The translations under genes were made by a program, and so were the position numbers. Below are positions 29,767 through 64,000 of a DNA stretch of 64,000 bases, one piece after another (position 1 is the stretch's first letter; the number at the start of each line of letters is the position of its first letter). Location: positions 52,838 through 116,837 of the forward strand of contig JAOASM010000036.1 of the NCBI GenBank assembly GCA_030158665.1, read 5' to 3'. The notes under the pieces were generated by a model that was given only the letters and a program-made list of their open reading frames with translations, did not search any database and was not told the DNA's origin. Source of the stretch: Sediminibacterium sp. GTDB taxonomy: Bacteria > Bacteroidota > Bacteroidia > Chitinophagales > Chitinophagaceae.

Positions 29767-30833
29767 TACACCCAACGATCTTGCTCAAAATCAAAAATCT
29801 TTTGCTTGATCTTTTCTCCTTCTTGTAAACGCTTGATTGGGTCTTTAAACAACGCATTCAACATCTTGTCATTGTAATTGTCTAAAGTAGACTTCACAAC
29901 ATACCCATTGAAGTAACGACTCTCAAATAATTCCTCCCATGTAATACGGCTCGAAATGTTTCTTGGGTTGTACACTTCGGCTTTAGCAAGACTTGTTCTA
30001 AGCTCTGGATAGTAGATCCAAAACAAAGGTCGCTTCACTACTTTATTACCAATCTGAATGGCAGCAATAGGCGCAATCCCTATGATTCTGCTATACATTC
30101 TACTTGTTTTACTATCAAATATCCATTGCTCCTTTAATCTAAAGGTGTAAATAGAATCTGGATTAGGTGCTAAATTGGTATTGTAAATAATACTGGTATC
30201 ATACACATTTGGATCCAATACATTTTGTACCAACTGGGTATCTAAACTTCCTTTTAAAGAGGCATTCACTTCGTCTAAACTCAATGGTGTGGTGAAACGA
30301 TCATCTACAGTAGAGAAAGGAACTACCCCATCTTTTTCAATCGCACGCAATAACACTGCAAAGAAACGCTGATCGCCATTTTCGTCATAAGATTGATACA
30401 TGAATGTTCTGTTGATCTTTTCTCTTGCATCAATTTCCTCCCAAACAAATTCACTGAACAAGGCATCTTCTTCTCTTAAATTTTCATAAGGCAATGGCAG
30501 TCTCTCTTTTACTCCTTTTCTTGAATTGGTCTCAGAAAAAAAGGCATAGCCATTTCTTAAGCTTCTTTTGTTATTGGCATTAAATCCACCTACGACAGTG
30601 GTGTCGATATTTTTTGTTGGCTTCACATCTGAAATTGTAGGAGCTGCCACTACTTGATTATTCGCTACAGGCTTAGTTACAGGTTTTGTAATCACTGTAT
30701 CTTTAGTCGCTGGAGTAGCAGTTGTTGTTTTCTTTTTAGCGCCATAAGAAAACTGAGCATTTGCAGATAAAGTCATTGCCAAAGAGGCAAGAACGATGCA
30801 GCTTGTTTTCATTGTCTTTTTCATAAATACCAT
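29763..30833 (-). CDS. gldN: Gliding motility/T9SS protein GldN
   Basis: Position after gldM; RLPLPYENLREEDALFSEFVWEEIDAREKINRTF. Confidence 0.93.
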   Translation of the reverse strand: MVFMKKTMKTSCIVLASLAMTLSANAQFSYGAKKKTTTATPATKDTVITKPVTKPVANNQVVAAPTISDVKPTKNIDTTVVGGFNANNKRSLRNGYAFFSETNSRKGVKERLPLPYENLREEDALFSEFVWEEIDAREKINRTFMYQSYDENGDQRFFAVLLRAIEKDGVVPFSTVDDRFTTPLSLDEVNASLKGSLDTQLVQNVLDPNVYDTSIIYNTNLAPNPDSIYTFRLKEQWIFDSKTSRMYSRIIGIAPIAAIQIGNKVVKRPLFWIYYPELRTSLAKAEVYNPRNISSRITWEELFESRYFNGYVVKSTLDNYNDKMLNALFKDPIKRLQEGEKIKQKIFDFEQDRWVY

Positions 30834-30878
30834 TTATTAATTTCAAATCGACTTTCTTATTTACCCAAGGATGATGCC

Positions 30879-32429
30879 TTATTGTAAAATGAAAGTGATT
30901 GTTTGATCTAATTTTCTTGATCCACCACCTGGCTCTGACACTTTGATTTCACCAATAGTTACTGTAGTTCCAGCCTGGCACTTTCTAATTAAAGCAGTTG
31001 CACCACCCGAAAAAGCAGGACCATTCACCTCTGCAAAATCAGGCTCGTCAAATCCTTTACCAGTAGCAATTACGATGTAAGAAAGAATATTGAACTTCAC
31101 ACCTTCAAATACAAAGTCTCTTAAGTCTGCAATGACGCCGCCTTGCGCTCTAAATTTAGCAGCAGCCATATTGCCTCCTGCACTTCCTCCCACAATCGCA
31201 ATTGGATCTGGGATTCTCTTTACAGGAATCGCTAATTTTTGTGTTTGCTTGCCATCATTTACTGTAACAACAGCAGTTCCGGTTTGCGTACAAGTCACGA
31301 CATATTGTCCAGAACCAGCCTTTCTAATATTGGCACCTGCACCTTCTACAGTGACATTGATTTTTTCACCACCACCTCCACCAGTAATACTTAATGGATT
31401 CTCTAAGCCTTTATAAAATACCCTTGTTTTATCTGTAGATACCACCAATCCAGATGGGGTGCCAACCGTGAACTGTACATCTTTTTCAACTACTGCAGTT
31501 TCACCATTTGGTTTTAAGAAAGAAATACGGACACGCTTTCTTTGAATGCCAGGTGTTGCACCCGCAACAGATTTATACACTGCAGATCCATCTGCAGCTA
31601 CTGGCACGACCACGCCATCAATTGAGATGGTTGGTTTTGCAGCACTACTAAATGCACCAACACCAGCCGTGATCACCAATTCTTCTCCAGACATCAAATA
31701 CTGAGAATTAGATGCTGCAAATGCATTGAACTGATCATATACCAATTCCACTTCACCAATTTCTTTATGACAATATTCAACTACCTGCGCTTCTGTATTG
31801 CGAATATCATTTTGAAACTTTGTCAAAATAGTAATTGCTGCAATGGTTGGTGTCATATTAAAATAAGCATAAGCCCAATCATTTTTTGCAGCCAAATTAT
31901 TAGAAGTTGGGATAGATAAATCTAATGACACAGTTGGGATCACCTCTTTTTCAATAGCAGGATCAATCGCTGCTAAATCTTGTTTGAATTGCTTTAATTT
32001 ATTAAACAATTCTTCCCCTTTTGATATACCAGATTTCTTATTTAAAAACAACCTTGTAGTGGCATCTAAATCATCTTCTTTAAACGTCTCTTTTCCGTCT
32101 TCAATTTTCAATCCAGCTTCTTCCTTTAAGGCCAATTTCAATGATTCAACATAGGCATACATTTCATCTGCCATTGCTTTTACCTTATTGGCCTTGGGTG
32201 CCCAGATTGCCGCTTTCTCGGCGGTCTTTGGGTCATTCAATTTAGACTCCAATGATTTATAAATATCTTGATTCTTATTTTGAATAATTACATTCGCATT
32301 CGTCAAACTTTGATCAATTGTCTTGAACGCATTTAAAATCTCGCTAGATACATTCAATGCCAAGAGCGCAGTCAACACCAAGTACATGATGTTAATCATT
32401 TTCTGCCTTGGTTCTTTAGGTAACGACAT
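30879..32429 (-). CDS. gldM: Gliding motility/T9SS protein GldM
   Basis: SLPKEPRQKMINIMYLVLTALLALNVSSEILNAF; N-terminal TM. Confidence 0.95.
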   Translation of the reverse strand: MSLPKEPRQKMINIMYLVLTALLALNVSSEILNAFKTIDQSLTNANVIIQNKNQDIYKSLESKLNDPKTAEKAAIWAPKANKVKAMADEMYAYVESLKLALKEEAGLKIEDGKETFKEDDLDATTRLFLNKKSGISKGEELFNKLKQFKQDLAAIDPAIEKEVIPTVSLDLSIPTSNNLAAKNDWAYAYFNMTPTIAAITILTKFQNDIRNTEAQVVEYCHKEIGEVELVYDQFNAFAASNSQYLMSGEELVITAGVGAFSSAAKPTISIDGVVVPVAADGSAVYKSVAGATPGIQRKRVRISFLKPNGETAVVEKDVQFTVGTPSGLVVSTDKTRVFYKGLENPLSITGGGGGEKINVTVEGAGANIRKAGSGQYVVTCTQTGTAVVTVNDGKQTQKLAIPVKRIPDPIAIVGGSAGGNMAAAKFRAQGGVIADLRDFVFEGVKFNILSYIVIATGKGFDEPDFAEVNGPAFSGGATALIRKCQAGTTVTIGEIKVSEPGGGSRKLDQTITFILQ

Positions 32430-32484
32430 TTACGCTATATTTTATTAAGTGAATTAAAATTGTTTGAGTCTAATAACTCCTATC

Positions 32485-33021
32485 TTATTTTCCTTGCATT
32501 GCATGGATCATCTTGCTATACACTTGATTCAATTGAGTCAAGTTATCAGCCAACTGTGTCATTTGCTCTTTTGTTCTTGCTGCTTCATTCACTGTTGAAC
32601 TCATTGCAGTAGACATTTCTTTTAAACTACCATAAAAATGATTCATTTCCTCAATCGTCTTACTCATAGACAAAAACTGATTGTTCAAGTTTTTTAATCC
32701 TTCTGTTGAGCTATTGATGGTCCCTAAATTATTAGAGACATCTTGTACTGTTTTTTGAACACTATTTAAAGCATGAACTAATTCAGTTGCATCCACTTTT
32801 CCACCACCCATTGCACTACCGCCATGGTCTACTGGAGGAGGAGGTAAGAATGCATAAATTACAAATATCCCCGCCTCTGTCAACAATCCCACTATCAACG
32901 CCCAATCTGCCCAAGATAAGTGGATGATTTTAGCCAATGCTCCAAGGATTACAACAGCAGCACCTAAAGAGATGATGACGTTAACGATCTTATTTGTTTT
33001 TTCTGAAATTGTCTTTGCCAT
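32485..33021 (-). CDS. gldL: Gliding motility/T9SS protein GldL
   Basis: Two TM helices, IISLGAAVVILGALAKIIHLSWAD; operon position. Confidence 0.93.
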   Translation of the reverse strand: MAKTISEKTNKIVNVIISLGAAVVILGALAKIIHLSWADWALIVGLLTEAGIFVIYAFLPPPPVDHGGSAMGGGKVDATELVHALNSVQKTVQDVSNNLGTINSSTEGLKNLNNQFLSMSKTIEEMNHFYGSLKEMSTAMSSTVNEAARTKEQMTQLADNLTQLNQVYSKMIHAMQGK

Positions 33022-33071
33022 TAGGAAAATTTATAAAATTAAAAGTTTGTTGATTGTTTGAAATGCTCGGT

Positions 33072-34364
33072 TTAATTGACTCTTGGTGCCATTGAGAGCA
33101 CACATCTAAATCCGATATAAGATTTTGCAGTGTCTTGGTATTCATAGTTGCGAGAACTCACTTGACAATTGTATGCAATGTCTTTCCAAGATCCACCTCT
33201 GATTACTTTTCTTTTCATCAATACAGGATCTGTGTCTTTTGCATTGTATTGCACATCTGGACTAAAGTCTCCAAAGAAATTATAGCTTCCTTCATAAAAT
33301 ACAGAACTTGTCCACTCAGCTACATTACCTGCCATGTCAAATAACCTGAAATCATTTTCAGTGTAGGCTTTCACTTTAGTCGTGTAGATATTATCGTTCT
33401 TCGCGTCTCCACCAAAATAATCCCCTCTTCCTGGTTTAAAATTGGCTAATAAACGTCCTTCTTTAGTTCTTGTATAAGGAGATCCCCATGGATACATCGC
33501 ATTTGATTTTGAATTCCCTCTTGCAGCATACTCCCACTCAGCCTCTGTTGGTAATCGGTAGATGCCATCAATCTTTTGATCTGCTCTTCCTGGCTTACCA
33601 GCATAATAATCACTATTATTTGTTCTCCAATGGGTAAAAGCAACTGCTTGTTTCCAAGTCACACCCACCACTGGATATTCATTGTATGCCGCATGACTAA
33701 AATACAATCTTGTCAAAGGCTCATTGTAGGAATAAGAGAAATCTCGCATCCAAACCAATGTGTCTGGATAAACAGGTTGATTCACAGTAATTAAGTAATC
33801 TCCAAGAGATTGTTCTAGCCCCTTAGATGCTTTTGCAGCAGCTTTTAAATCAACAAAAGAATACTTGTAAATTAATTTGTTAGGGTCTATTTCTATTCTA
33901 CCTTGAATACGGTTATCAGGACTTAGTAAAAGCTCATTTAGCTTTTCTAAAACTGCTCTACTATTTTGATTGATTCTTGCTGCTCTAGCCCAATCCACAC
34001 GGATCGTATCTTCATTTTGGTTGATACCACCGCCATAAATTGCCAAATACTTCAAAGAATCAGCAACATACTTTACAAATCTTCTATACTGTTCGTTGGT
34101 CACCTCAGTTCTATCCATCCAAAAACCTTGAACAGATACTAATTTCTTACGATTGACCATCGAAAGGTCCATCTGCTCATCACTTGCCCCCATGTAGAAT
34201 GAACCACTAGGGATGGATACTGTCAGAGGATCTAAACGCTTAGCACTGCTGTTGCGTTTCCCCTTTTTTGGTGGCGCAAATGCAATCACAGCGAGTGATA
34301 AAATCAAAATGCTCAAGGCCGCAATGGGGAAATTGATCCTTTTATTTTTTAAAAATGGTATCAT
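33072..34364 (-). CDS. gldK: Gliding motility/T9SS lipoprotein-like GldK (formylglycine-generating-enzyme fold)
   Basis: SFYMGASDEQ...VSVQGFWMDRTEVTNEQYRRFV...YRLPTEAEWEYAARG; operon position. Confidence 0.93.
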   Translation of the reverse strand: MIPFLKNKRINFPIAALSILILSLAVIAFAPPKKGKRNSSAKRLDPLTVSIPSGSFYMGASDEQMDLSMVNRKKLVSVQGFWMDRTEVTNEQYRRFVKYVADSLKYLAIYGGGINQNEDTIRVDWARAARINQNSRAVLEKLNELLLSPDNRIQGRIEIDPNKLIYKYSFVDLKAAAKASKGLEQSLGDYLITVNQPVYPDTLVWMRDFSYSYNEPLTRLYFSHAAYNEYPVVGVTWKQAVAFTHWRTNNSDYYAGKPGRADQKIDGIYRLPTEAEWEYAARGNSKSNAMYPWGSPYTRTKEGRLLANFKPGRGDYFGGDAKNDNIYTTKVKAYTENDFRLFDMAGNVAEWTSSVFYEGSYNFFGDFSPDVQYNAKDTDPVLMKRKVIRGGSWKDIAYNCQVSSRNYEYQDTAKSYIGFRCVLSMAPRVN

Positions 34365-50270: not shown

Positions 50271-50867
50271 TTAGACAGCTTCTGGCGGGTGTAAAATCTC
50301 TCCTGTATAGCTACTCGAAATTGGTGTAGCATAGAATGAATATGTATTGATTACCAAGCTGGCATCAATAACCTGATGCTTACTTAATTGGATAGATTCA
50401 TATACTGAGTAAGTCGGATTCAATTTGATCTTGGAATCCTTAGCTTTCGAATTAGAGGTGGAGGAAGCATCTAACTCTTTGCTCAAATGATGTGCTTTGT
50501 TTTGATTGGCAACAATTGCTGCTTCTTCTTCATCGGATGCAGCAATAATCTCCCAACCAGCTGGCGTCTTAGTAATAGAAACAATATCATAGAACATCCC
50601 TTTGTAGCTAAATTCACGACCCTTTTCTTCCCAATGATATCCCTTGGGTAAAATGGATTTATCTTTCACTACAAATTTTATTTGATCCTCTTTTCTACCC
50701 TTTTTTGAATCGTCGTTTTCGGCTTTGATTTCATTCAATTTCCCCGCATCAATCATGGCAAAGCGTTCCTGCTCATGTACTTTTTCTTGAAGCCAATAAA
50801 AATAACTTAAACTACTTGTAGATAATAACAAAGCAGCAAAACAGAATATGGCAATGGCTTTTTTCAA
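50271..50867 (-). CDS. Hypothetical exported/membrane-anchored protein ending in EILHPPEAV
   Basis: ORF with N-terminal hydrophobic segment; co-directional upstream of TonB receptor. Confidence 0.7.
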   Translation of the reverse strand: MKKAIAIFCFAALLLSTSSLSYFYWLQEKVHEQERFAMIDAGKLNEIKAENDDSKKGRKEDQIKFVVKDKSILPKGYHWEEKGREFSYKGMFYDIVSITKTPAGWEIIAASDEEEAAIVANQNKAHHLSKELDASSTSNSKAKDSKIKLNPTYSVYESIQLSKHQVIDASLVINTYSFYATPISSSYTGEILHPPEAV

Positions 50868-50907: not shown

Positions 50908-53127
50908 CTACCTTACCCAATACCAAATGATACCAGGATTTGGACTTGTAGATGTTCCGCCAGATGCATCTGAAAGCCAGGGAGAAGGTGTATAATATTG
51001 ATTATTTGAAACCATTGTACCCCACCAGTTTCCTGATCCCGTTGACAAAGTGATATAGCCAGTTCCGGAACCTGTTGTACTACTATACCATGGCATTCTT
51101 TGTGAAATTCCATTGTTTGCTGTGTTGTAGTTCCAGTTACCAAATTTAGTATTTATCGTTACGTCCGTTTGAGTATTGTCTGTTTTTACAAAACTATAAT
51201 TCCCATTTGCAGTCCAAATTCCACCAAAATTTCCTCGAGTATTTGCATCAATCATATATTGAAACCCACTTGCACTTCTTTTAATATAATCAGCCCAGCC
51301 TATGATTGAATAACTTACAGTTCCGGTGCTTGTAACATCAGAAGTAGTTGAAAAAGGAATTTCGGTATTGTAAGCAATTGCATTTGCATAAGTCCATACA
51401 GAGTTAGATGAATTTTTCAAAATTAAAGTCCATCCACCGTTGTCTGTCGTCATATCTGCATAAATTTTAAATGGCGCACCTACATTAATGTTTGCATTTT
51501 TAATCCAATAAAAACCATCGGTTGAATTGGGGTAATCTTGTTTAATTTGATATGCACTAGTGGATGCAGTATTGGGACTTAGTCCATCTTTTTCTGCATA
51601 AAATCTTGATTTATTGGCATTGAAATTATTCGTAATTTCTTGTTGCGTCAATTCACGAATATATACTTTAAAATTAGCTACATTCATATTCATCCTCCAA
51701 TTAAGATCGTTACGCCAACTTGAAATTCTACCTGCACCTGCATTAAAATTGGCATTCAATGTATTAAAATTGCCATAGATCTGACTCATTGATTGTTGCT
51801 CTCCATTAACATAAATTTTATTATTAGACTTAGCGTTAGTATTCATGACAAACACCAGGTGCCTCCATCCGCCAACAATACCCAAATAATCTGCCCTGGC
51901 ACTAGTCATTCCATATAAATCTCCTGCCGAAGTATTGTATCCTATATTACCACCACTCGTCCAAACATCATATAAACCAAATCCAAAATACATTCCAGTT
52001 GGCGAAGTCAATGAATTAGTCTTTACCCACATTTCCACCGTCACCACATTTGTGCTTCCAATATTTGCTGAAAAATCTGCATAGCTTGTAGTGCCATTAA
52101 ATACAATGGATCCACCATTAGCTGAATTAAAAGAGGTATTTGTTAATGTAACGTTAGATCCATTTCCGGATAAGTCATTCCAAGTAGTAGATCCACTACC
52201 ACTATAACTTGATGTATTGCCCGCATCTAGATGTAAAACCAACCCTGAATTAGAAATACATGTAATTGAAACACTACCATCACCAGTTGTATTGAATGTT
52301 CCGTATGAATTAATGTCTGTAATTGATTTCGAAGAACCACCACCACCGCCGCCATTTGCAGCACCTCCTCCTGCTCCACCACCACCACCATAAAATCCAG
52401 CACCACCGCCACCCGCACCTTGCCAAATGGTACCAATACCGCCAGCACCACCATTCATCCCATTACCATCCCCACCATGTTGTGCAGGCGCATTATCAAA
52501 TGCATACCCACCCACACCAGCAGCTGTAGTAGATGCACCATAACCAAATTGATATCTTGATGAAACAAGATATCCAGTAGCACCTTGCCCATTTGCAGCC
52601 GAACCAGTATTCGAATTTAAAGCTGTGCCTCCATTGTAATTTATTGTACCCCCAGTTCCACTTCCACCTCCACCACCTCCAGCAACCACTAATGCATTTG
52701 CAGTAGCAGGTGAACTAGAAGTAAACACACCAGACAAACCACCGCCTGCACCACCAAAGCCTGTTCCACTATTATCATTACCTCCATATCCTGCAAAACC
52801 ATATTTCGCAATTGCAGATTGTCCGGGGAATCCTCCAACTACGATGTATAATATTTGCCCTGGAGTAACATTTAATGTTGTAGTTATATTCGCACCTGCA
52901 CCACCCGGTTGACCTCCACCTCCCGTTCCACCTTTAGCACCAATAGCATTTACCTGAATAGTGGTAACTCTATTGGGTACGATAAATTGTTGAATCGCTC
53001 CAGTGTATGAAAAAGTCTGTGTATTAATATTAATTGGTTTTCTTAAAGCAAGATTGCGCGCTACAATTTGTGCACTTATGTTCATCTTGAAAGAAAGAAA
53101 TAATAATATGAAAATGAATTTACGCAT
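50908..53127 (-). CDS. Exported glycine-rich + LamG/concanavalin-like + fibrinogen-like domain protein
   Basis: Signal peptide; GGTGGGGQPGGAGANITTTLNVTPGQILYIVVGG; LVLHLDAGNTSSYSGSGSTTWNDLSGNG; FKIYADMTTDNGGWTLILKN. Confidence 0.85.
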   Translation of the reverse strand: MRKFIFILLFLSFKMNISAQIVARNLALRKPININTQTFSYTGAIQQFIVPNRVTTIQVNAIGAKGGTGGGGQPGGAGANITTTLNVTPGQILYIVVGGFPGQSAIAKYGFAGYGGNDNSGTGFGGAGGGLSGVFTSSSPATANALVVAGGGGGGSGTGGTINYNGGTALNSNTGSAANGQGATGYLVSSRYQFGYGASTTAAGVGGYAFDNAPAQHGGDGNGMNGGAGGIGTIWQGAGGGGAGFYGGGGGAGGGAANGGGGGGSSKSITDINSYGTFNTTGDGSVSITCISNSGLVLHLDAGNTSSYSGSGSTTWNDLSGNGSNVTLTNTSFNSANGGSIVFNGTTSYADFSANIGSTNVVTVEMWVKTNSLTSPTGMYFGFGLYDVWTSGGNIGYNTSAGDLYGMTSARADYLGIVGGWRHLVFVMNTNAKSNNKIYVNGEQQSMSQIYGNFNTLNANFNAGAGRISSWRNDLNWRMNMNVANFKVYIRELTQQEITNNFNANKSRFYAEKDGLSPNTASTSAYQIKQDYPNSTDGFYWIKNANINVGAPFKIYADMTTDNGGWTLILKNSSNSVWTYANAIAYNTEIPFSTTSDVTSTGTVSYSIIGWADYIKRSASGFQYMIDANTRGNFGGIWTANGNYSFVKTDNTQTDVTINTKFGNWNYNTANNGISQRMPWYSSTTGSGTGYITLSTGSGNWWGTMVSNNQYYTPSPWLSDASGGTSTSPNPGIIWYWVR

Positions 53128-53129
53128 AC

Positions 53130-53744
53130 TTAAAAAATACTATCTCCCATTACAAATCCAGTTGTAGCTGTATTCATTACTAATCCAATGACACTATTCG
53201 TTGCTCTTGTTGTTAATCCGTTTGACGAATTCAATGTTACACTTGATCCAGCCAAAGTGATTGTACCAGCTCCCCCTTGTATTATCTGACAACTAAATCC
53301 AATAGGCAATGTATTTGGAACTGTAACAGTAATTGCGGATGAAGATGTGATTAAAAAAACTTTGTTATTATCTGTAGCGGCCAATGTAAATCCAGTGCTT
53401 TTTGTATTATCTATAATTAAACCATTTGAAATTTGAATCCAAGATGTTCCATTCCAATAATAATATCCTGGAACAACATTGTTAGGTGTATTTGTTGTGG
53501 TAGCTGTATTATAAACCAGCAAACCTGCAGCAGTAGCAAGCGCTGTTGTACCTGATAAACCTGTTAAAGGCGCAAATACGTTAGTTGCAGTTAGAGCAAC
53601 TCTTGGAGGCAAAAAACCTTTGTCGGCTGATGTTACATCCAGCTTCGCAGATGCGTTGGGCGTGGTTGTACCAATGCCTGTTTGTGCATTAACAATTGAA
53701 TAGGTCAACATGAATAAAATTGTTAAAATATTTTTATAACCCAT
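53130..53744 (-). CDS. Short exported fibre-like protein with GIGTTTP module
   Basis: MGYKNILTILFMLTYSIVNAQTGIGTTTPNASAKLDVTSADKGFLPPRV; start moved to 53744. Confidence 0.8.
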   Translation of the reverse strand: MGYKNILTILFMLTYSIVNAQTGIGTTTPNASAKLDVTSADKGFLPPRVALTATNVFAPLTGLSGTTALATAAGLLVYNTATTTNTPNNVVPGYYYWNGTSWIQISNGLIIDNTKSTGFTLAATDNNKVFLITSSSAITVTVPNTLPIGFSCQIIQGGAGTITLAGSSVTLNSSNGLTTRATNSVIGLVMNTATTGFVMGDSIF

Positions 53745-55080
53745 ATTTATGTTTTGTTGCATTATAATTTTGAAAAACTTCGTCTGCTGAAATCGAACGA
53801 TTATAGATTTGAATTGACCCAATGTAACCATTAAAACCTACAGCACCGCCACTCCTTGCATCGCCTAACCACAAAGCCGATTGCGTATAATTTGTTCTGC
53901 CTGCATTGTTAATAACAGAACCATCAGCAGCTCCATTGATATACATTTGAAGATTACCGCTAGAAATAGTAAACCCAATATAATACCAAGTATTCGTTGA
54001 CATAGCCGTTAATCCAAACATATTACTTTTACTGGTGGTATATAAATGTTGATAGTATAAACTACCATTAGGATAAATGTCATAATGAAAATCACTATAC
54101 CCTCCAGTATTAACATCTTGAAACCATTTTGTTAAAAAAATATTCCAACCATACCTTAATGTACTTGCTTTTAGCCAAATAAATACACTTATATCCCCTA
54201 TTGGAAAGTTAGCAGGCGTTTTACCAAAATCAATGTAATCTTGGTCTCCATCTGCATAAAAAATGCCAGCATTACTTGTATTGTAATTCATATTATTACC
54301 CATAGCACCTGTTGCATTTCCTTTTAAATCTGATACAGCAGTCCCGTACTTTGGATAAGTATACCAATTGCCTGGATCTACAGAAAAAACAAGGCCATTT
54401 GGAACAGCCTCCTCTCCAGATAATTCTTCAATATCTTGATACCAAATTGAACCATTTGATTCAGAAGGTTTTTTCCAAAATAATTGCATGACTTCTCCCC
54501 CTCCTCCTTCCTGCATCCTCGCTCTAAATGTATATTTCTTACCTGCTATTAATGAAATGGTTCCAGTATGTGTACCTATAGAAAAATTTCCGTGAGGACC
54601 ATAATGATTGACTACGTTTTGATCATTAATGAATAAATCTACTGCATCATCACCTTCAATTGAAAAAGTATAAGTGCCTGTTTGCTTTGGGATAAAATAT
54701 CCTGAAACTACAATTGTAAAACCATCTCCATTAAATCCAGTATAAGGTGCCTGATTTCCTAAAGCATTTTTCAAATCCGTTTGACTGAAAAAATTAATTA
54801 AGTTCGCAGCATAGCTAGAAGATGAATTTAAATTTCCAGTATTACTTGTTAAAGCTACATATCCAGCAAGTCTAAAGTTTGCCCCATTTGCAAAATTTGT
54901 TTCAAATTCAGCTGCATTAGCCGGGAAAGCAGAAGTTGAAGTACTGTACAAGCGATAATACAGAGACTTGTTGCCCTTTGGACGATTGCTTTCTAGCGTA
55001 GGATAATAACTTGGCATTATTTGAGCAAACGAACTATGCATTAATAATAAAGGAATAAGATGTAAAAATATTTTTCTCAT
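53734..55080 (-). CDS. Exported PA14-like + LamG-like protein
   Basis: GDGFTIVVSGYFIPKQTGTYTFSIEGDDAVDLFINDQNV (PA14-like); GDISVFIWLKAS...WYYIGFTISSGNLQMYINGAADGS (LamG). Confidence 0.85.
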   Translation of the reverse strand: MRKIFLHLIPLLLMHSSFAQIMPSYYPTLESNRPKGNKSLYYRLYSTSTSAFPANAAEFETNFANGANFRLAGYVALTSNTGNLNSSSSYAANLINFFSQTDLKNALGNQAPYTGFNGDGFTIVVSGYFIPKQTGTYTFSIEGDDAVDLFINDQNVVNHYGPHGNFSIGTHTGTISLIAGKKYTFRARMQEGGGGEVMQLFWKKPSESNGSIWYQDIEELSGEEAVPNGLVFSVDPGNWYTYPKYGTAVSDLKGNATGAMGNNMNYNTSNAGIFYADGDQDYIDFGKTPANFPIGDISVFIWLKASTLRYGWNIFLTKWFQDVNTGGYSDFHYDIYPNGSLYYQHLYTTSKSNMFGLTAMSTNTWYYIGFTISSGNLQMYINGAADGSVINNAGRTNYTQSALWLGDARSGGAVGFNGYIGSIQIYNRSISADEVFQNYNATKHKYGL

Positions 55081-55082
55081 TA

Positions 55083-56051
55083 TTAATTACTCATTTCTCC
55101 TGAGACAATATAAACGCCCCCAACGTATAAAATAGTTGCAATAGCAAACTGTCCTGCTGTTTTTGTAAAGCTATTTCTGTTACTATATGTTCCTCCAAAT
55201 GTTATTTGTCCAGTAGATGCTTGCAAAACCATACAATTAAATCCTTCGGGCAAATTACCTGCTGACGGTAGTGTAAAAGTAGCAGCTGTGGTTCCAGTAT
55301 AGCGTAAAATCATTCCATTATCACTTACAGCAATATTTCTACCGGTATTTTCTGTACTCACATTGGAAACAAATCCACTCAATTTTGAAGAAGCGGTATT
55401 ACCTCCTGTTAAATTTCCACTTATTGCTACATCGCCTGTAACATCTAAGGCTTTTGTAGGAGCAGAATTCTTAATACCTACATTTCCGTTTTCTAAAATA
55501 TTAATCCCATTCGTCTCGGTTGCTCCACTAAATAAGCGCAGTCTTGCATTAGCGGATGTGGTTCCATATTGATCAATCGTCCAATCGGCAAGACTTCCGG
55601 TTAAAGATTTTTTGATAGTAATTTGTCCTCCCTCATTAATAGTTCCTGTTGGAAATAAAGATATTTCTCCAGGTATCGTTCCTGTAGCATTTCCTACAGT
55701 CAAAGTTGTTGATGGTGAAGTAGTACCAATACCCACCATGCCACCGTTAGGATTTAAGTACAAATTATAATTTATACTATAGTCATCTTTTTTTCTTGCT
55801 TGTATCCATGTACCGAAATTACTTGTCGAACTCATTAAACCGATATCAAGCAAATGAGTTACACTAGTACCGCTTAATCTAAAATGTCCGTTTTTAAGAT
55901 TATTACCGGAAGTTAAAGGATCTGCAGTTGTTGTTTCAATTTGAAACTTATTTACAGGCGTGGTAGTACCAATACCAGTTTGAGCAAATACCTTATTGAT
56001 AAATAAGGTATTAACTAATATAAATAATATTTTAAAAACTTTATTTTCCAT
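55083..56051 (-). CDS. Exported fibre-like protein with GIGTT(T/S)P modules
   Basis: QTGIGTTTPVNKFQIET, MVGIGTTSPSTTLTVGN, NVGIKNSAPTKALDVTGDVAISGNLTG; start moved to 56051. Confidence 0.8.
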   Translation of the reverse strand: MENKVFKILFILVNTLFINKVFAQTGIGTTTPVNKFQIETTTADPLTSGNNLKNGHFRLSGTSVTHLLDIGLMSSTSNFGTWIQARKKDDYSINYNLYLNPNGGMVGIGTTSPSTTLTVGNATGTIPGEISLFPTGTINEGGQITIKKSLTGSLADWTIDQYGTTSANARLRLFSGATETNGINILENGNVGIKNSAPTKALDVTGDVAISGNLTGGNTASSKLSGFVSNVSTENTGRNIAVSDNGMILRYTGTTAATFTLPSAGNLPEGFNCMVLQASTGQITFGGTYSNRNSFTKTAGQFAIATILYVGGVYIVSGEMSN

Positions 56052-58392
56052 ATCTAGTCTTTGTTGCATTATAATTGACTAAAATTTCAGATTCAGACAA
56101 TGCACGATTGTATATTTGAACCAATGGAATACTTGCATTTGCATAATAGCCTCCACTTGACCACATAGGAGCTCGTGAATAACCAATATAATATGGATTA
56201 TTGGTGGTATTAATAGAACTAGATAATGGAAATGGCTTTGAACTTAATGTACTCCAAGTGCTAGTCCAGTAATAAACAGAACTTGCAAATGTTCCATCAA
56301 AACAAATTCTTACACTTGTATTGCTATTGTCATAAGTGTATGCTATAAAATGCCAGTTTCCATCAAAAATTTTTGTACTTGGAATTGGATAAAATAAATC
56401 ATTACCCCAAAAAGCAAGGTAAACACCTCCGGTATTTACAGGAGGATAAGAATTAGCAGCACCTATTGTATTGGTATATCCAAGTGCAAGTTGCTCGGCT
56501 TGGCCATCAATATTAAATGAACCTTTATCAAGTAAAATAGTATTTTGATTGGCCGTTGATTTATACCAAACCATTACAGTTCTTGAATTATTTCCACTCG
56601 TTGAAGGAATAGCAACTCCATTGATATAATTATTAGTTCCATTAAAAGTAAAATACCCTTTATTAGGTAAATTATAGGTAGGGGAGTTGACTAGAGTTCC
56701 GTTATATCCGTTTCCTGAAAGGTCAGTCCAAGTTGCTCCAGTGCCTTTATAAGAATTTAAATTGCCCGCATCTAAATTTAGAACTAGTCCATCTGGTATT
56801 ATATTATTAGACTTAATAATTAAACCCATACGCATCGTAATATGATTTGTCCAACCATTTGTAGTTGGCATTAATTTTACGTATTTAGCATATACAACAT
56901 TTGGGAATAATGTGGTTACCGCATCAGTTGAGTTTGTGTTTAATGTGACACCCGTTAACACCCTAGTCCAACTGGTCCCATCTAAACTTACATCCACATT
57001 TGCTGCACTCACCCATTGTCCACCATTCAAGGCTCTTCCTTGTGTTATAATTCCAGTAATATAAGCAGGGACATCATAGTTTAATATCAAGTATTGGTTT
57101 ACATCATTTGCACCTGCAGACCATCCTTGTGGCGAATTTAACCAAGGAGTTAAATGATACCCAGTTGTAGTAGTAGGATAAGGAGCATTTGCATAAAATA
57201 CATCCCCAGCCCAATTACTTGAACTTGTCCAATAAGTTGGATTTGTGTTAGTGGATGGACTATGAACAAAAGTATTTAGGGTATTATTAGAGCCTGGCGT
57301 CCACTTGCTTGTTGCGGCAGTAAAAACAATTTTCCCCGTTCCTGATAAAATAAGTTTATTTGTATTTAAAGTTGTGCTTGCATTTAGATTGACAGTATGG
57401 TCATTGTTTACTTGTAAGCCCCCAAACGCATTGACATAATTTGAAGTGTTGGTAGCATTTAAAATAGTTGCATTACTTAATGTAAAAGCGAAATCATTAT
57501 TATGTACCACAAACGATGAATACACCCCACTATAATCAGAACCTGCTGGGAAGTCGGCACTAATTTCAACAATATAACCACTTACACCAGATGTATTTGT
57601 TGCGGATAAATCATTCCAACAAGTTCCTCCATTCCATTTAGCTACTGCATAATCTTCTGAGTGATTCGCTCCATTCGGTTCGCCAGAACACCAGTTATTA
57701 TATTGTCCACTAATGTTTCCTGTAGTAGGGCCATTTTGAGTTTTTATGATAGTGCCCAATTCTGGTCCGGCATCTAATATCCAAGTACCATCCGTTGTAG
57801 TAGCAGCATCTGTAATGGCAATCCAAATATTACTACCTGATATATTATTATTAATGAAATCTTGTTCAGACTGGGAAGTAATAGTTACCAAATACCCTGT
57901 CTTTCCTTTAAAAGAATTTCCAGATGCTCCAGATTTGGCATTCGCATAGGTAATAGTAGCGCTAGAAACGTATTTGTAAAAATGCTTATTGATAGGATTG
58001 TAAACATAGCTAGCATCATAACTAGAAATTTCCACATTGATTCTAACTGCTGTTTTTATGCTACCCATAGACACTGTCATGGCAGCAAGTGCATTGTTGA
58101 TATTATCCCTTGTGCCATAAAATACAACACTAGTGATGCTAGTCCAAGAAGCATAACCTGTATTAAGCGTAAGCCCTGTGTTAGTAGGAAAAGAAATGGT
58201 CGCCCCACTTTGATAATCTAAACTCACACTCACTAAAATGGATGAAGTATTATCAGCCCATGTAATTACAAAATTACCTGCATCCACATTTGTCGCGTTC
58301 GCTTCTATAGTTAAAGGAGTAGGCGCAGTTATACTTTGGGCAAAAGAAGTTGATCCAAATAATAAAAAAAAGAAAGTAAATAATTTTTTCAT
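56041..58392 (-). CDS. Exported C-type lectin-like + LamG protein
   Basis: NIWIAITDAATTTDGTWI...YNNWCSGEPNGANHSEDYAVAKWNGGTCWNDL...YIVEI; LVLNLDAGNLNSYKGTGATWTDLSGNG and LamG-like region. Confidence 0.87.
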   Translation of the reverse strand: MKKLFTFFFLLFGSTSFAQSITAPTPLTIEANATNVDAGNFVITWADNTSSILVSVSLDYQSGATISFPTNTGLTLNTGYASWTSITSVVFYGTRDNINNALAAMTVSMGSIKTAVRINVEISSYDASYVYNPINKHFYKYVSSATITYANAKSGASGNSFKGKTGYLVTITSQSEQDFINNNISGSNIWIAITDAATTTDGTWILDAGPELGTIIKTQNGPTTGNISGQYNNWCSGEPNGANHSEDYAVAKWNGGTCWNDLSATNTSGVSGYIVEISADFPAGSDYSGVYSSFVVHNNDFAFTLSNATILNATNTSNYVNAFGGLQVNNDHTVNLNASTTLNTNKLILSGTGKIVFTAATSKWTPGSNNTLNTFVHSPSTNTNPTYWTSSSNWAGDVFYANAPYPTTTTGYHLTPWLNSPQGWSAGANDVNQYLILNYDVPAYITGIITQGRALNGGQWVSAANVDVSLDGTSWTRVLTGVTLNTNSTDAVTTLFPNVVYAKYVKLMPTTNGWTNHITMRMGLIIKSNNIIPDGLVLNLDAGNLNSYKGTGATWTDLSGNGYNGTLVNSPTYNLPNKGYFTFNGTNNYINGVAIPSTSGNNSRTVMVWYKSTANQNTILLDKGSFNIDGQAEQLALGYTNTIGAANSYPPVNTGGVYLAFWGNDLFYPIPSTKIFDGNWHFIAYTYDNSNTSVRICFDGTFASSVYYWTSTWSTLSSKPFPLSSSINTTNNPYYIGYSRAPMWSSGGYYANASIPLVQIYNRALSESEILVNYNATKTRYGK

Positions 58393-58395
58393 TTT

Positions 58396-59094
58396 TTACT
58401 TATTTCTGATTTTAATCAAATTTTTAACTTTGCTATTTAAACTATCAATTTGCTTTTGTTGTTCTTTAATAGCTTCTACTAATAAAGCAACTAGTTTATC
58501 ATATTTAACAGATCGATATTCTTCTTGTGTTTTATCCTTAGTTACAATTTCTGGAACTACCTTTTCTACTTCTTGAGCAATAAATCCTAATTCATCCTGC
58601 GCACCAAACTCTTTTTCAGGGAAAGCATTTTGATTCCAATTAAAATAAACTCCTCTTAATGCTTTAATCTTATCTAATGCATTCGCCACAGGACGTATAT
58701 TGGTTTTAAACCGAATATCGGAAGTACCAGATACAGAGTTTGCTGTAATATCCCCATTCACATAAAGCTTTGTACTAGGCGATGTAGTGCCAATACCAAC
58801 ATTACCGCCATTGGGATTAATTAATAAATTATAATTAGTTCCGTATGCTCCTTTATCTCTTGCTTGTATCCAAGAATAAGTACTTGTACTACTTAATCCA
58901 AAATCCAATACATGCGTTCCAACTGTTGCACCTAATCTTAGATTGCCATTGGCTGCTGCTCCAGTTGAAGCAGGATCAGCCTTAACTGCAAAAATATCCA
59001 ATTTATTAACTGGCGCAGTAGTACCAATACCAGTCTGTGCACTGGCTTTAACCAATACACAACTAACGAATAGGATGAGTACTACTTTTTTCAT
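58396..59094 (-). CDS. Exported fibre protein with C-terminal S74 intramolecular-chaperone-like domain
   Basis: QTGIGTTAPVNKLDIF; SDIRFKTNIRPVANALDKIKALRGVYFNWNQ...LGFIAQEVEKVVPEIV...YRSVKYDKLVALLVEAIKEQQKQI. Confidence 0.88.
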   Translation of the reverse strand: MKKVVLILFVSCVLVKASAQTGIGTTAPVNKLDIFAVKADPASTGAAANGNLRLGATVGTHVLDFGLSSTSTYSWIQARDKGAYGTNYNLLINPNGGNVGIGTTSPSTKLYVNGDITANSVSGTSDIRFKTNIRPVANALDKIKALRGVYFNWNQNAFPEKEFGAQDELGFIAQEVEKVVPEIVTKDKTQEEYRSVKYDKLVALLVEAIKEQQKQIDSLNSKVKNLIKIRNK

Positions 59095-59112
59095 TTTATT
59101 AATTTATACTGA

Positions 59113-62100
59113 CTAGAACAATGCTCTGAAAATATACCAGTTGGTACCATCAGAAACTAATTTCATCCAGTTGTTGGAAGGTTCAATACCCAATGCAGCA
59201 CCAGTTGATGTTAAAGTAGAATTATCCTGAATCAAATAACCTCCTGCAGAGGCAATACTTACAGATACACTCGCCACATTTTTGATAGTAATCTCTCTGC
59301 CCGCGCCAAGTGTAACTGCACTTGGAATAGTAATCGTTTGTGATGCAATTGAACCTGTGAAAATGATATACGAAGCAGTTGAAGTTGCGTTACCAGTAGC
59401 ACTCATTGTAGTCACCGACCCTCCTGTATTTTGCCAGGTTGCTCCACCTGTTGCATCAGATGTTAGAACCTTACCTGCAGCGGCACCTGTTGTTATTGCA
59501 ACAGTACTTGTGAAAGTCGCTGCTCCTGCAACAGTAGTTGCACCACCTAATCTAGTGGTACCAGAAACGTCCAATGTTGCGGTTGGCGAGGATGTTCCAA
59601 TACCTACATTGCCCGCATTGGTTATTCTCATTCTTTCATTAAAGAATGGTGTTGTACTTTTACCTGTACTTAGAATAATAGATTTAGTCTGACTAGCATT
59701 CGCAATGTGCATATCCTGACCACTTCCAATATAAGTGACATCATTCGCTGCTCCAATATTATAAGTTGCTGGAAAATTAAATAAACTATTATTAATACCC
59801 ATCCAAGCAAAGCCCGAAGTTTCAGTCCCATTATCCGCAGTAGCTGCATATCCACTTTGAGCTTTAATTCCAGTACTTCTGTTTTTAACATTCATTTGAA
59901 AGAAATCATCTATACTTCCTGTCAAATTTAATCCAGTGACATTCGTAGTTGTACCTGCATCCACGTCAAATTTAGTTGTGGGCGAATTTGTACCTATGCC
60001 AACATTACCAGCGTTGGTAATCCTTAACGCTTCTGTTCCTCCATTGTTCCCAACTTGAAAAATATGATCTGCACCGGTTGCGCCTACTCCACTAGTTGTT
60101 TTATAGGTTATTGACTGTGTTGAACTTGACCCACCAGTAATTGTAGGAGCTACTAAACTTGAAACTGAGGTTGCCCCTGCATTAACAGTTGTTAATGTTG
60201 AATTGCCAGTTGCTGTTAATGAAGTAAGAGTTGTTAATCCAGTTACGTTCACTGTAGAAGAAAATGTGGATGCGCCAGCAGCTAAAGTAGAACTTAAACT
60301 TAATGAAGTTCCTGTAGCAGCACCAATAATAGGTGTAGTTAAAGTTGGACTTGTAGCAAAAACCAACAAACCAGAACCAGTTTCATCCGTCATTGAGTTT
60401 AATAAATTTAAACTAGTTGGAGTTGCTAAAAAACTAGCAATTCCAGTTCCTAAGCCACTAACTCCAGTTGCAATTGGCAAGCCTGTTGCATTGGTCAAAG
60501 TTGCTGCCGTTGGTGTACCAAGACTTGGAGTTACTAAGACAGGACTTGTAGATAATACAACGCTTCCACTTCCAGTTGCACTGGTCACACCAGTTCCTCC
60601 ATTTGCAACAGCAATTGTTGTTGCACTCCAAACACCTGTAGTAATTGTACCCACTCTTGTTAAGCTAGAATTAACCACATTACTAGCTAATGTAGTTCCT
60701 GTCAATGTATTTGCATCTGCAGTAATTGTGATATCCGTACTACCATCAAATGCAATACCATTGATATTTTTAGTGGCTGCTAATTTTGTAGCAGTACTTG
60801 CATTTCCAGTTAAGGCACCAGTGAAATTAGTAGAAGTCACTGTACTTAATCCTGCCAAAGTTGAAGTGGTAGCTCCTAAAGCAACATTGGTTGATCCAAT
60901 TGTTATAGCACTATTTGCTAATTTATTATTAGCGATTGCAGTTCCACTCCAAACACCCGTTGTAATCGTACCCACAGTTGTCAAGCTAGAAGTCACTACA
61001 TTACTAGCTAGTGTTGTGCCTGTTAAAGTATTTGCATCTGCTGCAATGGTAATATTTGATGTACCATCAAAAGAAACACCATTGATGGTTCTTGCTGTTG
61101 TTAATTTATTAGCTGTGCTTGCTGTACCACTTAATGTTCCAGTAATTGTTCCTGCTGTAAAGTTGCCACTTGCGTCTCTTGCCACAATCGCACTAGCAGT
61201 ATTCGCATCCGTTGCAGTCGTTGCACTATTGCTTACTTTACCCGAAGTACTGATAGTTGCCAAATCTGCATCAGTAATACTTCCTACATAAGTAAATGTT
61301 CCACTTCCTACATTTTTTAAATAACCGGCTGAATTAGATAAACTTCCAATATTTGTTAAATTAGCATAAGGTGCTTGATAATCCGTTCCTGCAACAGCAG
61401 CACTCACTACACCAGTTCCATTAGCTTTCATTATTCCAGTTACAGTTCCTGCTCCTCCTACATTTGATCCAATGACTGAACCACTCCAAGTTCCACTTGT
61501 GATTGTACCAACACTTGTTAAACTAGAAGCAGTAACAGTTGATTTCAAAGTAGTACCTGATAAAGTTCCTGCATCAGCTATAATACTTGCAGTTCCTGCT
61601 GTTGTTAATCTACCTTTAGAATCTACTGTAAATGTTGGAATCGCTGTAGATGATCCATAGGATCCTGCAGTAACAGTGGTATTTGTTAAAGTTGCAGTGC
61701 CTGTAACATTTGAAGTGCCGTCAAATGAGCCACTTGTATATGTAATATCTCCTGTTGTTGAAATAGTTCTTCCTGCAGCAAGTGCAGTTGCAGTTGATGC
61801 ATTACCTGTTAAAGCACCCGTGAAATTTGTAGAAGTCACTGTACTTAATCCTGCCAAAGTTGAAGTGGTAGCTCCTAAAGCAACATTGGTTGATCCAATT
61901 GTTATAGCACTATTTGCTAATTTATTATTAGCGATTGCAGTTCCACTCCAAACACCCGTTGTAATCGTACCCACAGTTGTCAAGCTAGAAGTCACTACAT
62001 TACTAGCTAGTGTTGTGCCTGTTAAAGTATTTGCATCTGCTGCAATGGTAATATTTGATGTACCATCAAAAGAAACACCATTGATGGTTCTTGCTGTTGT

Positions 62101-64000
62101 TAATTTATTAGCTGTGCTTGCTGTACCACTTAATGTTCCAGTAATTGTTCCTGCTGTAAAGTTGCCACTTGCGTCTCTTGCCACAATCGCACTTGCAGTA
62201 TTCGCATCGGTTGCAGTTGTTGCACTATTGCTTACTTTACCTGAAGTACTGATAGTTGCTAGTTTTGTATCTGCAATTGCAGCCGAAGCATCAATGTCCG
62301 TATTTGAAATCGATCCTGTTAAATTTAATTTTGAATAAGCTATTGCTGCTCCAGATGCCACATCGCTATTTTTTATTGCACCTGCTAAATTTAATTTAGC
62401 ATATTCCACTGCAGTACCACTCCAAACACCCGTTGTAATGGTACCCACACTTGTTAAACTAGAAGCAGTTACAGTTGATTTCAAAGTAGTACCTGATAAA
62501 GTGCCTGCATCAGCTATAATACTTGCAGTACCTGCTGCTGTTAATCTACCTTTAGAATCTACTGTAAATGTTGGAATCACTGTAGATGATCCATAAGCAC
62601 CTGCAGTTACAGCAGTATTTGCTAAAGTAGTAGCAAAAGTACCTGAACCTGCGCCCGTCACATCACCTGTTAAAGTTGTTGTAGCGTTACCAGCCATAAC
62701 GTCTGTACCAATGACTAATCCTAAATTTATTCTTGCAGCTGATGCAGAGGTTGCACCGGTACCACCTTTAGTTAATGGAATTGTTGTTCCACTCCAGGTT
62801 GCTCCAGTTATATTTCCTGTTACATCCAAGTTTCCTGTGATTGATGCATTACCCGTGAATTTGGAAGTACCATCCACTTCTAATTTATAACCATTGTCTA
62901 TAAAATTGCCGCCAGTTTGTATTGTTATATTACCACTAGGCCACATTCTTGTAGACTCCACATTATAATTTGGATAGAATGAAATATACTTATTACTAGC
63001 ATCTGTTTGAATTTTTGCCCCATTATTTGCTCCATATCCAAGTATTAAATCTTGGAACATAAAAGTTTTATTTTGAGCAGTCAAACTTCCTACTGTTGTA
63101 ATATTTGAAGTTCCAGCCCATGTACTCAAAGCAGTATTTTCAACATTATTCAATCCTAAATTAGTTTTTGCCCCAATTACTGTTGTAGACCCTGTACCAC
63201 CGTTGGCTATAGCAATGGCAGTTCCACTCCACACACCTGTTGAAATAGTACCAACAGTCGTTAATGAACTAGATCCCGCTAATGGAGATGCACCAATAGT
63301 ATTGTAAGAAACTGTTTTTGCAACAGATCCATCAAATGTCGCACCTGCTGTTGCTCCAGTTCCACTCGCATCCATTGTCAAGGCATTGGCTGCTGCAGAA
63401 GCAATTGTAATATTTGCAGAACCATCAAAAGAAACACCATTGATAGTTCTAGCTGTTGTTAATTTATTAGCTGTACTTGCTGTACCACTTAATGTTCCAG
63501 TAATTGTTCCTGCTGTAAAGTTGCCACTTGCGTCTCTTGCCACAATCGCACTTGCAGTATTCGCATCGGTTGCAGTTGTTGCACTATTGCTTACTTTACC
63601 TGAAGTACTGATAGTTGCTAGTTTTGTATCTGCAATTGCAGCCGAAGCATCAATGTCCGTATTTGAAATCGATCCTGTTAAATTTAATTTTGAATAAGCA
63701 ATTGCCGCCCCAGATGCGATATCGCTATTTTTAATTGCACCGGCTAAATTTAATTTAGCATACTCCACTGCTGTTCCACTCCACACACCACTTGTAATGG
63801 TACCTACGCTTGTCAAGCTAGAATTCAACACATTACTTGCTAGCGTTGTGCCCGTTAAGGTATTTGCATCTGCAGCGATTGTAATATCTGCACTACCATC
63901 AAATGCAACACCATTGATATTTCTAGCTGTTGTTAATTTATTAGCTGTGCTTGCTGTACCACTTAATGTTCCAGTAATTGTTCCTGCTGTAAAGTTGCCA
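59113..64000 (-). CDS. Very large repetitive tail-fibre-like/beta-repeat surface protein; N-terminus beyond window
   Basis: Track ORF 59113-63831 starts at an internal Met; the frame stays open to 64000 (..GNFTAGTITGTLSGTASTANKLTTARNINGVAFDGSADITIAADANTLTGTTLASNVLNSS..). Confidence 0.88.
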   Translation of the reverse strand, partial: GNFTAGTITGTLSGTASTANKLTTARNINGVAFDGSADITIAADANTLTGTTLASNVLNSSLTSVGTITSGVWSGTAVEYAKLNLAGAIKNSDIASGAAIAYSKLNLTGSISNTDIDASAAIADTKLATISTSGKVSNSATTATDANTASAIVARDASGNFTAGTITGTLSGTASTANKLTTARTINGVSFDGSANITIASAAANALTMDASGTGATAGATFDGSVAKTVSYNTIGASPLAGSSSLTTVGTISTGVWSGTAIAIANGGTGSTTVIGAKTNLGLNNVENTALSTWAGTSNITTVGSLTAQNKTFMFQDLILGYGANNGAKIQTDASNKYISFYPNYNVESTRMWPSGNITIQTGGNFIDNGYKLEVDGTSKFTGNASITGNLDVTGNITGATWSGTTIPLTKGGTGATSASAARINLGLVIGTDVMAGNATTTLTGDVTGAGSGTFATTLANTAVTAGAYGSSTVIPTFTVDSKGRLTAAGTASIIADAGTLSGTTLKSTVTASSLTSVGTITTGVWSGTAVEYAKLNLAGAIKNSDVASGAAIAYSKLNLTGSISNTDIDASAAIADTKLATISTSGKVSNSATTATDANTASAIVARDASGNFTAGTITGTLSGTASTANKLTTARTINGVSFDGTSNITIAADANTLTGTTLASNVVTSSLTTVGTITTGVWSGTAIANNKLANSAITIGSTNVALGATTSTLAGLSTVTSTNFTGALTGNASTATALAAGRTISTTGDITYTSGSFDGTSNVTGTATLTNTTVTAGSYGSSTAIPTFTVDSKGRLTTAGTASIIADAGTLSGTTLKSTVTASSLTSVGTITSGTWSGSVIGSNVGGAGTVTGIMKANGTGVVSAAVAGTDYQAPYANLTNIGSLSNSAGYLKNVGSGTFTYVGSITDADLATISTSGKVSNSATTATDANTASAIVARDASGNFTAGTITGTLSGTASTANKLTTARTINGVSFDGTSNITIAADANTLTGTTLASNVVTSSLTTVGTITTGVWSGTAIANNKLANSAITIGSTNVALGATTSTLAGLSTVTSTNFTGALTGNASTATKLAATKNINGIAFDGSTDITITADANTLTGTTLASNVVNSSLTRVGTITTGVWSATTIAVANGGTGVTSATGSGSVVLSTSPVLVTPSLGTPTAATLTNATGLPIATGVSGLGTGIASFLATPTSLNLLNSMTDETGSGLLVFATSPTLTTPIIGAATGTSLSLSSTLAAGASTFSSTVNVTGLTTLTSLTATGNSTLTTVNAGATSVSSLVAPTITGGSSSTQSITYKTTSGVGATGADHIFQVGNNGGTEALRITNAGNVGIGTNSPTTKFDVDAGTTTNVTGLNLTGSIDDFFQMNVKNRSTGIKAQSGYAATADNGTETSGFAWMGINNSLFNFPATYNIGAANDVTYIGSGQDMHIANASQTKSIILSTGKSTTPFFNERMRITNAGNVGIGTSSPTATLDVSGTTRLGGATTVAGAATFTSTVAITTGAAAGKVLTSDATGGATWQNTGGSVTTMSATGNATSTASYIIFTGSIASQTITIPSAVTLGAGREITIKNVASVSVSIASAGGYLIQDNSTLTSTGAALGIEPSNNWMKLVSDGTNWYIFRALF
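60830..61194. repeat. Long direct repeat copy A (365 bp), identical to 61829-62193
   Basis: Base-by-base comparison; offset 999 bp (333 codons), first mismatch at 61195/62194. Confidence 0.85.
61829..62193. repeat. Long direct repeat copy B (365 bp), identical to 60830-61194
   Basis: See partner. Confidence 0.85.
62117..62340. repeat. Direct repeat (224 bp), identical to 63476-63699
   Basis: Offset 1359 bp (453 codons); flanking mismatches at 62116/63475 and 62341/63700. Confidence 0.85.
63476..63699. repeat. Direct repeat (224 bp), identical to 62117-62340
   Basis: See partner. Confidence 0.85.

Follow-up and report, generated by a model that had tools for sequence, protein, structure and literature searches.

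What holds together the fibre and lectin genes that alternate along one strand of this Sediminibacterium sp. contig (JAOASM010000036.1), and what might their products build? The window, by which we mean the whole stretch of 64,000 nucleotides analysed (contig positions 52,838 to 116,837), carries on its minus strand a giant repeat fibre gene, three fibre/lectin pairs, a gene for a 198-aa protein and a TonB-dependent receptor gene, in this order. We propose a model in which each lectin docks through its N-terminal peptide on the tip of the fibre encoded directly upstream, the pairs acting as exchangeable cassettes; taken as a whole, we judge this explanation to be probable. The initial annotation had described seven co-directional minus-strand genes, all of which were recovered at their positions. 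The features are as follows, in window coordinates.

59113..64000, minus strand: 3' part of a giant repeat fibre gene, coding for 1628 aa, with the start missing at the contig end; PHROG tail-fibre matches at E 1e-27
58396..59094, minus strand: fibre 1, 232 aa; GIGTTxP stalk, C-terminal S74 intramolecular chaperone and coiled coil
58543..58722, minus strand: S74 (chaperone of endosialidase) domain of fibre 1; PF13884, E 9e-19, residues 125-184
56041..58392, minus strand: lectin 1, 783 aa; has C-type lectin-like and F5/8 type C domains and LamG at the C-terminus; partner of fibre 1
58300..58338, minus strand: proposed docking peptide (S74-fibre class) at the mature N-terminus of lectin 1, QSITAPTPLTIEA
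55083..56051, minus strand: fibre 2, 322 aa; GIGTTTP stalk, class I tip, end SGEMSN
55086..55439, minus strand: C-terminal ~118 aa of fibre 2, class I tip domain; HMM from A2/A10
53734..55080, minus strand: lectin 2, 448 aa; PA14 and LamG; partner of fibre 2, overlapping the start of fibre 3
55000..55023, minus strand: proposed docking peptide (class I) at the mature N-terminus of lectin 2, QIMPSYYP
53130..53744, minus strand: fibre 3, 204 aa; GIGTTTP stalk, class II tip, end GFVMGDSIF
53133..53432, minus strand: C-terminal ~100 aa of fibre 3, class II tip domain; PHROG phage matches
50908..53127, minus strand: lectin 3, 739 aa; Gly-rich, with LamG and a fibrinogen-like domain; partner of fibre 3
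53035..53070, minus strand: proposed docking peptide (class II) at the mature N-terminus of lectin 3, QIVARNLALRKP
50271..50867, minus strand: conserved 198-aa protein at the downstream locus edge; orthologues 36-52% identical in the same place in L044, L105, L119 and L047
47989..50196, minus strand: TonB-dependent receptor, conserved flank; 69-82% identical in the same place in L044, L105, L119 and L047

The genes are packed tightly: gaps of 3, 2 and 2 nt separate fibre from lectin in pairs 1, 2 and 3, and where a lectin gene meets the next fibre gene, at both places, the two share 11 nt. All six pair proteins, the three fibres and the three lectins, possess a signal-peptide-like N-terminus that ends before a Q. 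ORF calling offers alternative upstream starts for fibre 2 (56069, 18 nt) and fibre 3 (53831, 87 nt); the expected signal peptides are obtained with starts at 56051 and 53744. Domain searches bore out the S74, C-type lectin, PA14, LamG and fibrinogen-like domains that had been read from the letters, and added the F5/8 type C domain of lectin 1, which had been missed. The matches are PA14 (E 1e-20) and LamG (E 2e-18) in lectin 2 and LamG (E 1.5e-11) and a fibrinogen-like GGGWT domain (E 2e-17) in lectin 3; LamG in lectin 1 is weaker, yet above the cut-off (E 4e-10). The right edge of the window (116837) is the exact end of the contig and lies inside the giant fibre gene, which is therefore open at its 5' end, and the locus cannot be extended rightward in the source genome. 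The giant fibre has internal repeats, e.g. TAGTITGTLSGTAST four times, and it is probably because of these that the contig breaks here.

Is the alternation a peculiarity of this contig? With the fibre as sole query, 69 loci were recovered from 85,462 genomes, and in 55 of them the fibre ends in a C-terminal tip domain of ~115 aa. The next gene is codirectional after every one of these tip-domain fibres (55/55), mostly at -1 to +5 nt. These 55 next genes encode LamG (25), PA14 (14), F5/8 (11) and Fib_succ_major (4) domains and T9SS tails (6), against LamG in two, F5/8 in three and Fib_succ_major in one of 55 control genes from the same loci. The partners are mostly proteins of 230-860 aa with diverse LamG, PA14, F5/8 and fibrinogen-like domains. 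The tip is the C-terminal end of the protein in 110/110 HMM matches; it occurs in 3/396 genomes of a phylum sample and in 29/147 of the genus. The alternation of fibre and lectin genes is thus not due to chance. A search for the same alternating order elsewhere had been advised, and the pairs do recur; genes scattered and never paired were not what the related genomes displayed.

A second regularity points to how the partners might be joined. Directly after the signal peptide of the partner lies a short motif, the type of which varies with the class of the fibre. Class I fibres end in, for example, SGEMSN, SGDMTN or TGDLQ, and their partners start with a Q[IVLF].LPxYQ-like motif; class II fibres end in GDSIF or GDTIY and are followed by an NLALRKP-like motif. 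A Pro at mature position 4-6 is found in 43/50 class I partners, in 0/13 class II partners and in 33/203 other secreted proteins, several of these 33 having proved to be genuine partners. The NLALRKP-type motif is present in 12/13 class II partners and absent from the 50 class I partners and the 203 other secreted proteins of the loci. In a table of 100 pairs the class II motif appears in 17/17 class II and 1/77 class I partners (Fisher 9e-18, the sequences being related). The simple Pro rule is missed by 21 of the 77 class I partners; some of these carry near variants such as QIMATYQ, and six are Marinimicrobia-type T9SS-signal proteins. Six Marinimicrobia-type loci have a T9SS sorting domain in the gene directly after the tip fibre, and in three of them (L125, L132, L137) this class I tip fibre and T9SS-signal protein are followed by an LP-motif lectin, so that the motif rule spans the inserted gene. 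Among six S74 fibres, the partner starts with ITAP[AT]PLTIEA in four and with TSTNSTG.GNFN in two, and the QSITAPTPLTIEA-class motif of lectin 1 recurs after S74 fibres in L103, L105 and L106. We defined the motifs by inspection, and new loci and phages then served as tests. Held-out loci yielded the class I motif in 8/9 cases and the class II motif in 2/2, and three divergent tips in new loci have partners with related [LM]KP motifs. Eleven loci, one of which is a fragment of the window itself, are operons of mixed class, and in these every lectin matches its own upstream fibre, with a combined permutation value of 1.6e-5 that ignores relatedness. As the motifs were set after inspection and the sequences are related, these P values overstate independence.

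Could this matching be a by-product of descent, fibre and lectin being co-inherited and co-expressed adhesins that act separately and agree in class only through the shared ancestry of each pair? In most bacterial pairs each tip subclass is associated with one lectin family, and since the sequence sets are not independent, co-inheritance could explain class matching within a family. Across families it fares less well: at least five clusters of class I partners without detectable similarity past the N-terminus all keep the motif, which is likewise retained at the mature N-terminus of otherwise unrelated partners in bacteria and phages, and which is lost where tip and lectin are fused. We therefore regard separately acting adhesins as an unlikely account of the pairs.

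The fusions are found in phages, and the tip domain, which has PHROG matches, is a phage fibre domain. In some contigs from a viral scan the tip ends the fibre and the protein of the next gene starts with MTFILPSFGAS or a similar sequence; in others the tip runs via a linker, often Gly-rich, into a LamG-like part within one protein, and the motif is absent. In a second viral scan, the gene that comes next after a tip-ended fibre, at -1 to +5 nt, encodes in 79/79 cases a protein whose first seven residues include an LP-type motif, a count that comprises 24 distinct starts and many near-duplicate contigs; a looser form of the motif occurs in 105 of the 688 ORFs of these phage loci, partners counted in. 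In annotated Gordonia phages the partner starts with MVLPAPRF or MALPANRF. As the phage proteins lack a signal peptide, the motif stands at the mature N-terminus in phage and bacterial proteins alike. A search for solved relatives of a phage LP protein or a phage fibre gave only chance-like matches. Ruegeria and Sulfitobacter phages (L238, L239, L241, L243) have a variant tip end, LVGALA or LIGALA, and a next protein with a MSLLLSSVSASA-like start; judged by these ends and starts, they possibly represent a further docking class. Six phage loci (L292, L283, L304, L254, L313, L295) encode an LP protein of ~70 aa after the tip fibre and directly before a LamG-like protein, an arrangement that suggests a resemblance to an adaptor.

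Given these relatives, does the locus belong to a prophage, a tailocin or another phage-derived particle, and not to an apparatus of the cell surface? The fibre proteins do match phage tail-fibre families. In the three pairs, however, fibres and lectins alike bear signal peptides, which the phage versions lack; the locus is flanked by ordinary chromosomal genes that related genomes share; and none of the genes examined nearby was recognised as a head, tail tube, baseplate or lysis gene. A pure prophage reading was rejected on account of the signal peptides and the chromosomal flanks, and we consider a phage-derived particle of any kind highly improbable.

More pertinent is the idea that the protein encoded downstream acts in trans on the fibre, as its folding chaperone or transient cap, instead of forming a permanent binding tip. 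Gene order and tight coupling are the same as in phage fibre-chaperone pairs: Tfa and the Alteromonas caps are likewise encoded by a small gene beside the fibre gene, and V22 gp27 and A5 gp9 of Alteromonas phages act as chaperones and transient caps at the fibre tip (PMC10579305). These chaperones have a helical structure with a beta-hairpin, similar to that of intramolecular chaperone domains, whereas the partners described here are large proteins, with sizes and binding domains unlike those of small chaperones. Tip and LamG are, moreover, permanently joined in the phage fusions, and S74 fibres contain a chaperone in cis yet keep a lectin partner. With respect to endosialidase-type fibres, in which S74 is the hallmark, S74 is one of three classes of fibre end here: only fibre 1 has it at the C-terminus, where fibres 2 and 3 have tip domains. 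A chaperone or cap role for the lectins seems improbable, and docking of the lectin on the fibre tip is the reading that we pursue.

A close parallel is gp37/gp38 of T-even phages (T2, S16, PP01), where a separate receptor-binding-tip gene also follows the fibre gene directly. In T2 the N-terminus of gp38 interacts with gp37, and a chimera required the matching N-terminus (PMC12892980), which gives the docking model a precedent. gp38 has a longer N-terminal attachment region and a glycine-rich receptor-binding part, in contrast to the lectins here, with their peptide of ~12 residues ahead of LamG, PA14, F5/8, C-type or fibrinogen-like domains; the proteins here also differ in carrying bacterial export signals. 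The gp38 family is not among the listed Pfam and PHROG matches of the lectins, which comprise LamG, PA14, F5/8 and other families. By analogy, the fibre/lectin pairs would work like gp37/gp38 without being members of that family.

Structure prediction was applied to a pseudo-complex made from the in-frame junction of L118, in which the stop was read as Gly so that tip and PA14/LamG lectin form a single chain. This AlphaFold model, a fused monomer and not a trimer, has pLDDT ~80 for the tip and ~78 for PA14, and its docking peptide is disordered (pLDDT <50), so that no docking is seen in it. Foldseek matches of the fused model to toxin binding domains and to sialidases are generic beta-sandwich resemblances, most likely of the LamG part. 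The best solved relative of the tip domain is the capsid spike of Pseudomonas phage Pa223 (PDB 9ny6), a weak one (sequence E 0.015; Foldseek match over 102 columns at 25% identity). Taken as a positive control for the LP motif, Pa223 showed no such motif in the gene after the spike.

How might the apparatus be put together? Each short fibre gene would give rise to a secreted stalk resembling a phage tail fibre, presumably trimeric, with a C-terminal end of class I, class II or S74 type, and the gene directly downstream to a secreted binding protein, the lectin. Upon removal of the signal peptide, the first ~12 residues of the lectin would become the docking peptide, which may attach non-covalently to the cognate stalk end, the stalk thereby presenting the lectin at its tip. 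The lectins are predicted to bind glycans, and the apparatus to sit at the cell surface. Cassettes that differ in tip class and whose binding domains are unrelated would be stacked behind the giant fibre at a fixed chromosomal site, and would be gained, lost and exchanged among freshwater Bacteroidota. Docking through the N-terminus is a step beyond the initial annotation, and in the literature searched, with most subscription journals outside its scope, no description of docking between a fibre tip and a lectin peptide was found. We also lean, with less assurance than for the model as a whole, towards a portable docking code, in which each tip class recognises a distinct mature N-terminal peptide of ~12 residues, common to phage and bacterial fibres, and lectins are exchangeable within a class. 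What are the implications of such a code? If it is correct, a short peptide predicts from the sequence which lectin belongs to which fibre, in phages and bacteria, and offers a natural attachment tag at fibre tips. It would account for the assembly and swapping of surface adhesion specificities in freshwater Bacteroidota, and would mean that phage receptor-binding modules serve as cell-surface adhesins, or the reverse.

Exchange of cassettes can be followed at the orthologous site in related genomes, which we recognised by the gene for the 198-aa protein, the TonB receptor (69-82% identity) and/or a MarC-like gene (82-98%). The number of cassettes at this site differs: L047 and L064 have one pair, L049 and L105 have two. 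Lectin 2 is 75% identical in its best segment to a lectin of a Flavobacterium MAG and 71% to one of Aquirufa; lectin 3 is 73% identical to an Aquirufa lectin and 67% to one of Flavobacterium ammonificans. Flavobacterium ammonificans GENT11 and Aquirufa antheringensis 30S-ANTBAC are carriers available in culture. GldK is 44-52% identical between these lineages, again in best segments, and lectins at 67-75% against this background indicate exchange of cassettes between orders. Sequence comparison thus points to fibre/lectin pairs moving between freshwater Bacteroidota as cassettes. The earlier proposal, that each fibre is stalk or partner of the adjacent lectin in a swappable kit, is supported by these comparative data on relatives and phages: the next genes are invariably codirectional, lectin N-termini match the fibre class, one site carries different pairs across species, lectins are more alike across orders than GldK, and phages have the pair as two proteins with the motif or as one fused protein that lacks it.

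How the apparatus leaves the cell and is held there is the weakest step of the explanation. Our tentative guess is that both depend on the giant fibre and on the small T9SS-signal protein whose gene precedes it in the orthologous loci. Those loci, which indicate what the contig break has cut off here, begin with a regulator (AraC-type in L047), followed by a protein of ~270 aa, a lipoprotein of ~140 aa and a protein of ~167 aa with a T9SS type A sorting domain, and then by the giant fibre, whose orthologues measure 1998-2618 aa (L064, L047, L043). In the window, the domain search found no T9SS sorting domain (PF18962/TIGR04183) on the fibres or lectins. A YadA-like C-terminal anchor, as in trimeric autotransporter adhesins (type Vc), had no Pfam match in the seven proteins, all of whose C-termini lie inside the window. 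The canonical T9SS/gliding core genes gldN, gldM, gldL and gldK are located at 29763-34364 (minus strand), ~16 kb from the fibre locus. The sorting domains at the orthologous and Marinimicrobia-type loci, together with gldKLMN in the window, make a role of the T9SS plausible, and from this sequence context we entertain its involvement in export or anchoring as a tentative idea that may well prove wrong. SprB-type gliding adhesins, which are T9SS-secreted in Bacteroidota, are likewise large, repetitive surface adhesins, and gldKLMN shares the window with the fibres; the fibres and lectins differ from them in lacking the sorting domain, in having phage-fibre relatives and in the separate encoding of the tip lectins.

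The ~270-aa head protein (L047:785-1606 and orthologues) ends in ..LNSFEIGMAVKATDLF at its C-terminus. No Pfam, NCBIfam or clear PDB relative of it was found, and a search for its gene in the source genome gave no match. A PorG-like identity was rejected, as profile comparison detected no relation. PorG-like sequence does occur in a second type of giant-fibre locus, present in the source genome (C23, C19; L010, L011, L086) and elsewhere (L048, L052/L056, L053/L057, L055, L087, L088, L090). Here the genes ahead of the giant fibre encode a long GldL paralogue (~490-630 aa), a GldM-like protein, a protein of ~715 aa that is PorG-like in its C-terminal part, a lipoprotein and a small protein with a T9SS signal. 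This second locus type is possibly a dedicated second motor of the T9SS type.
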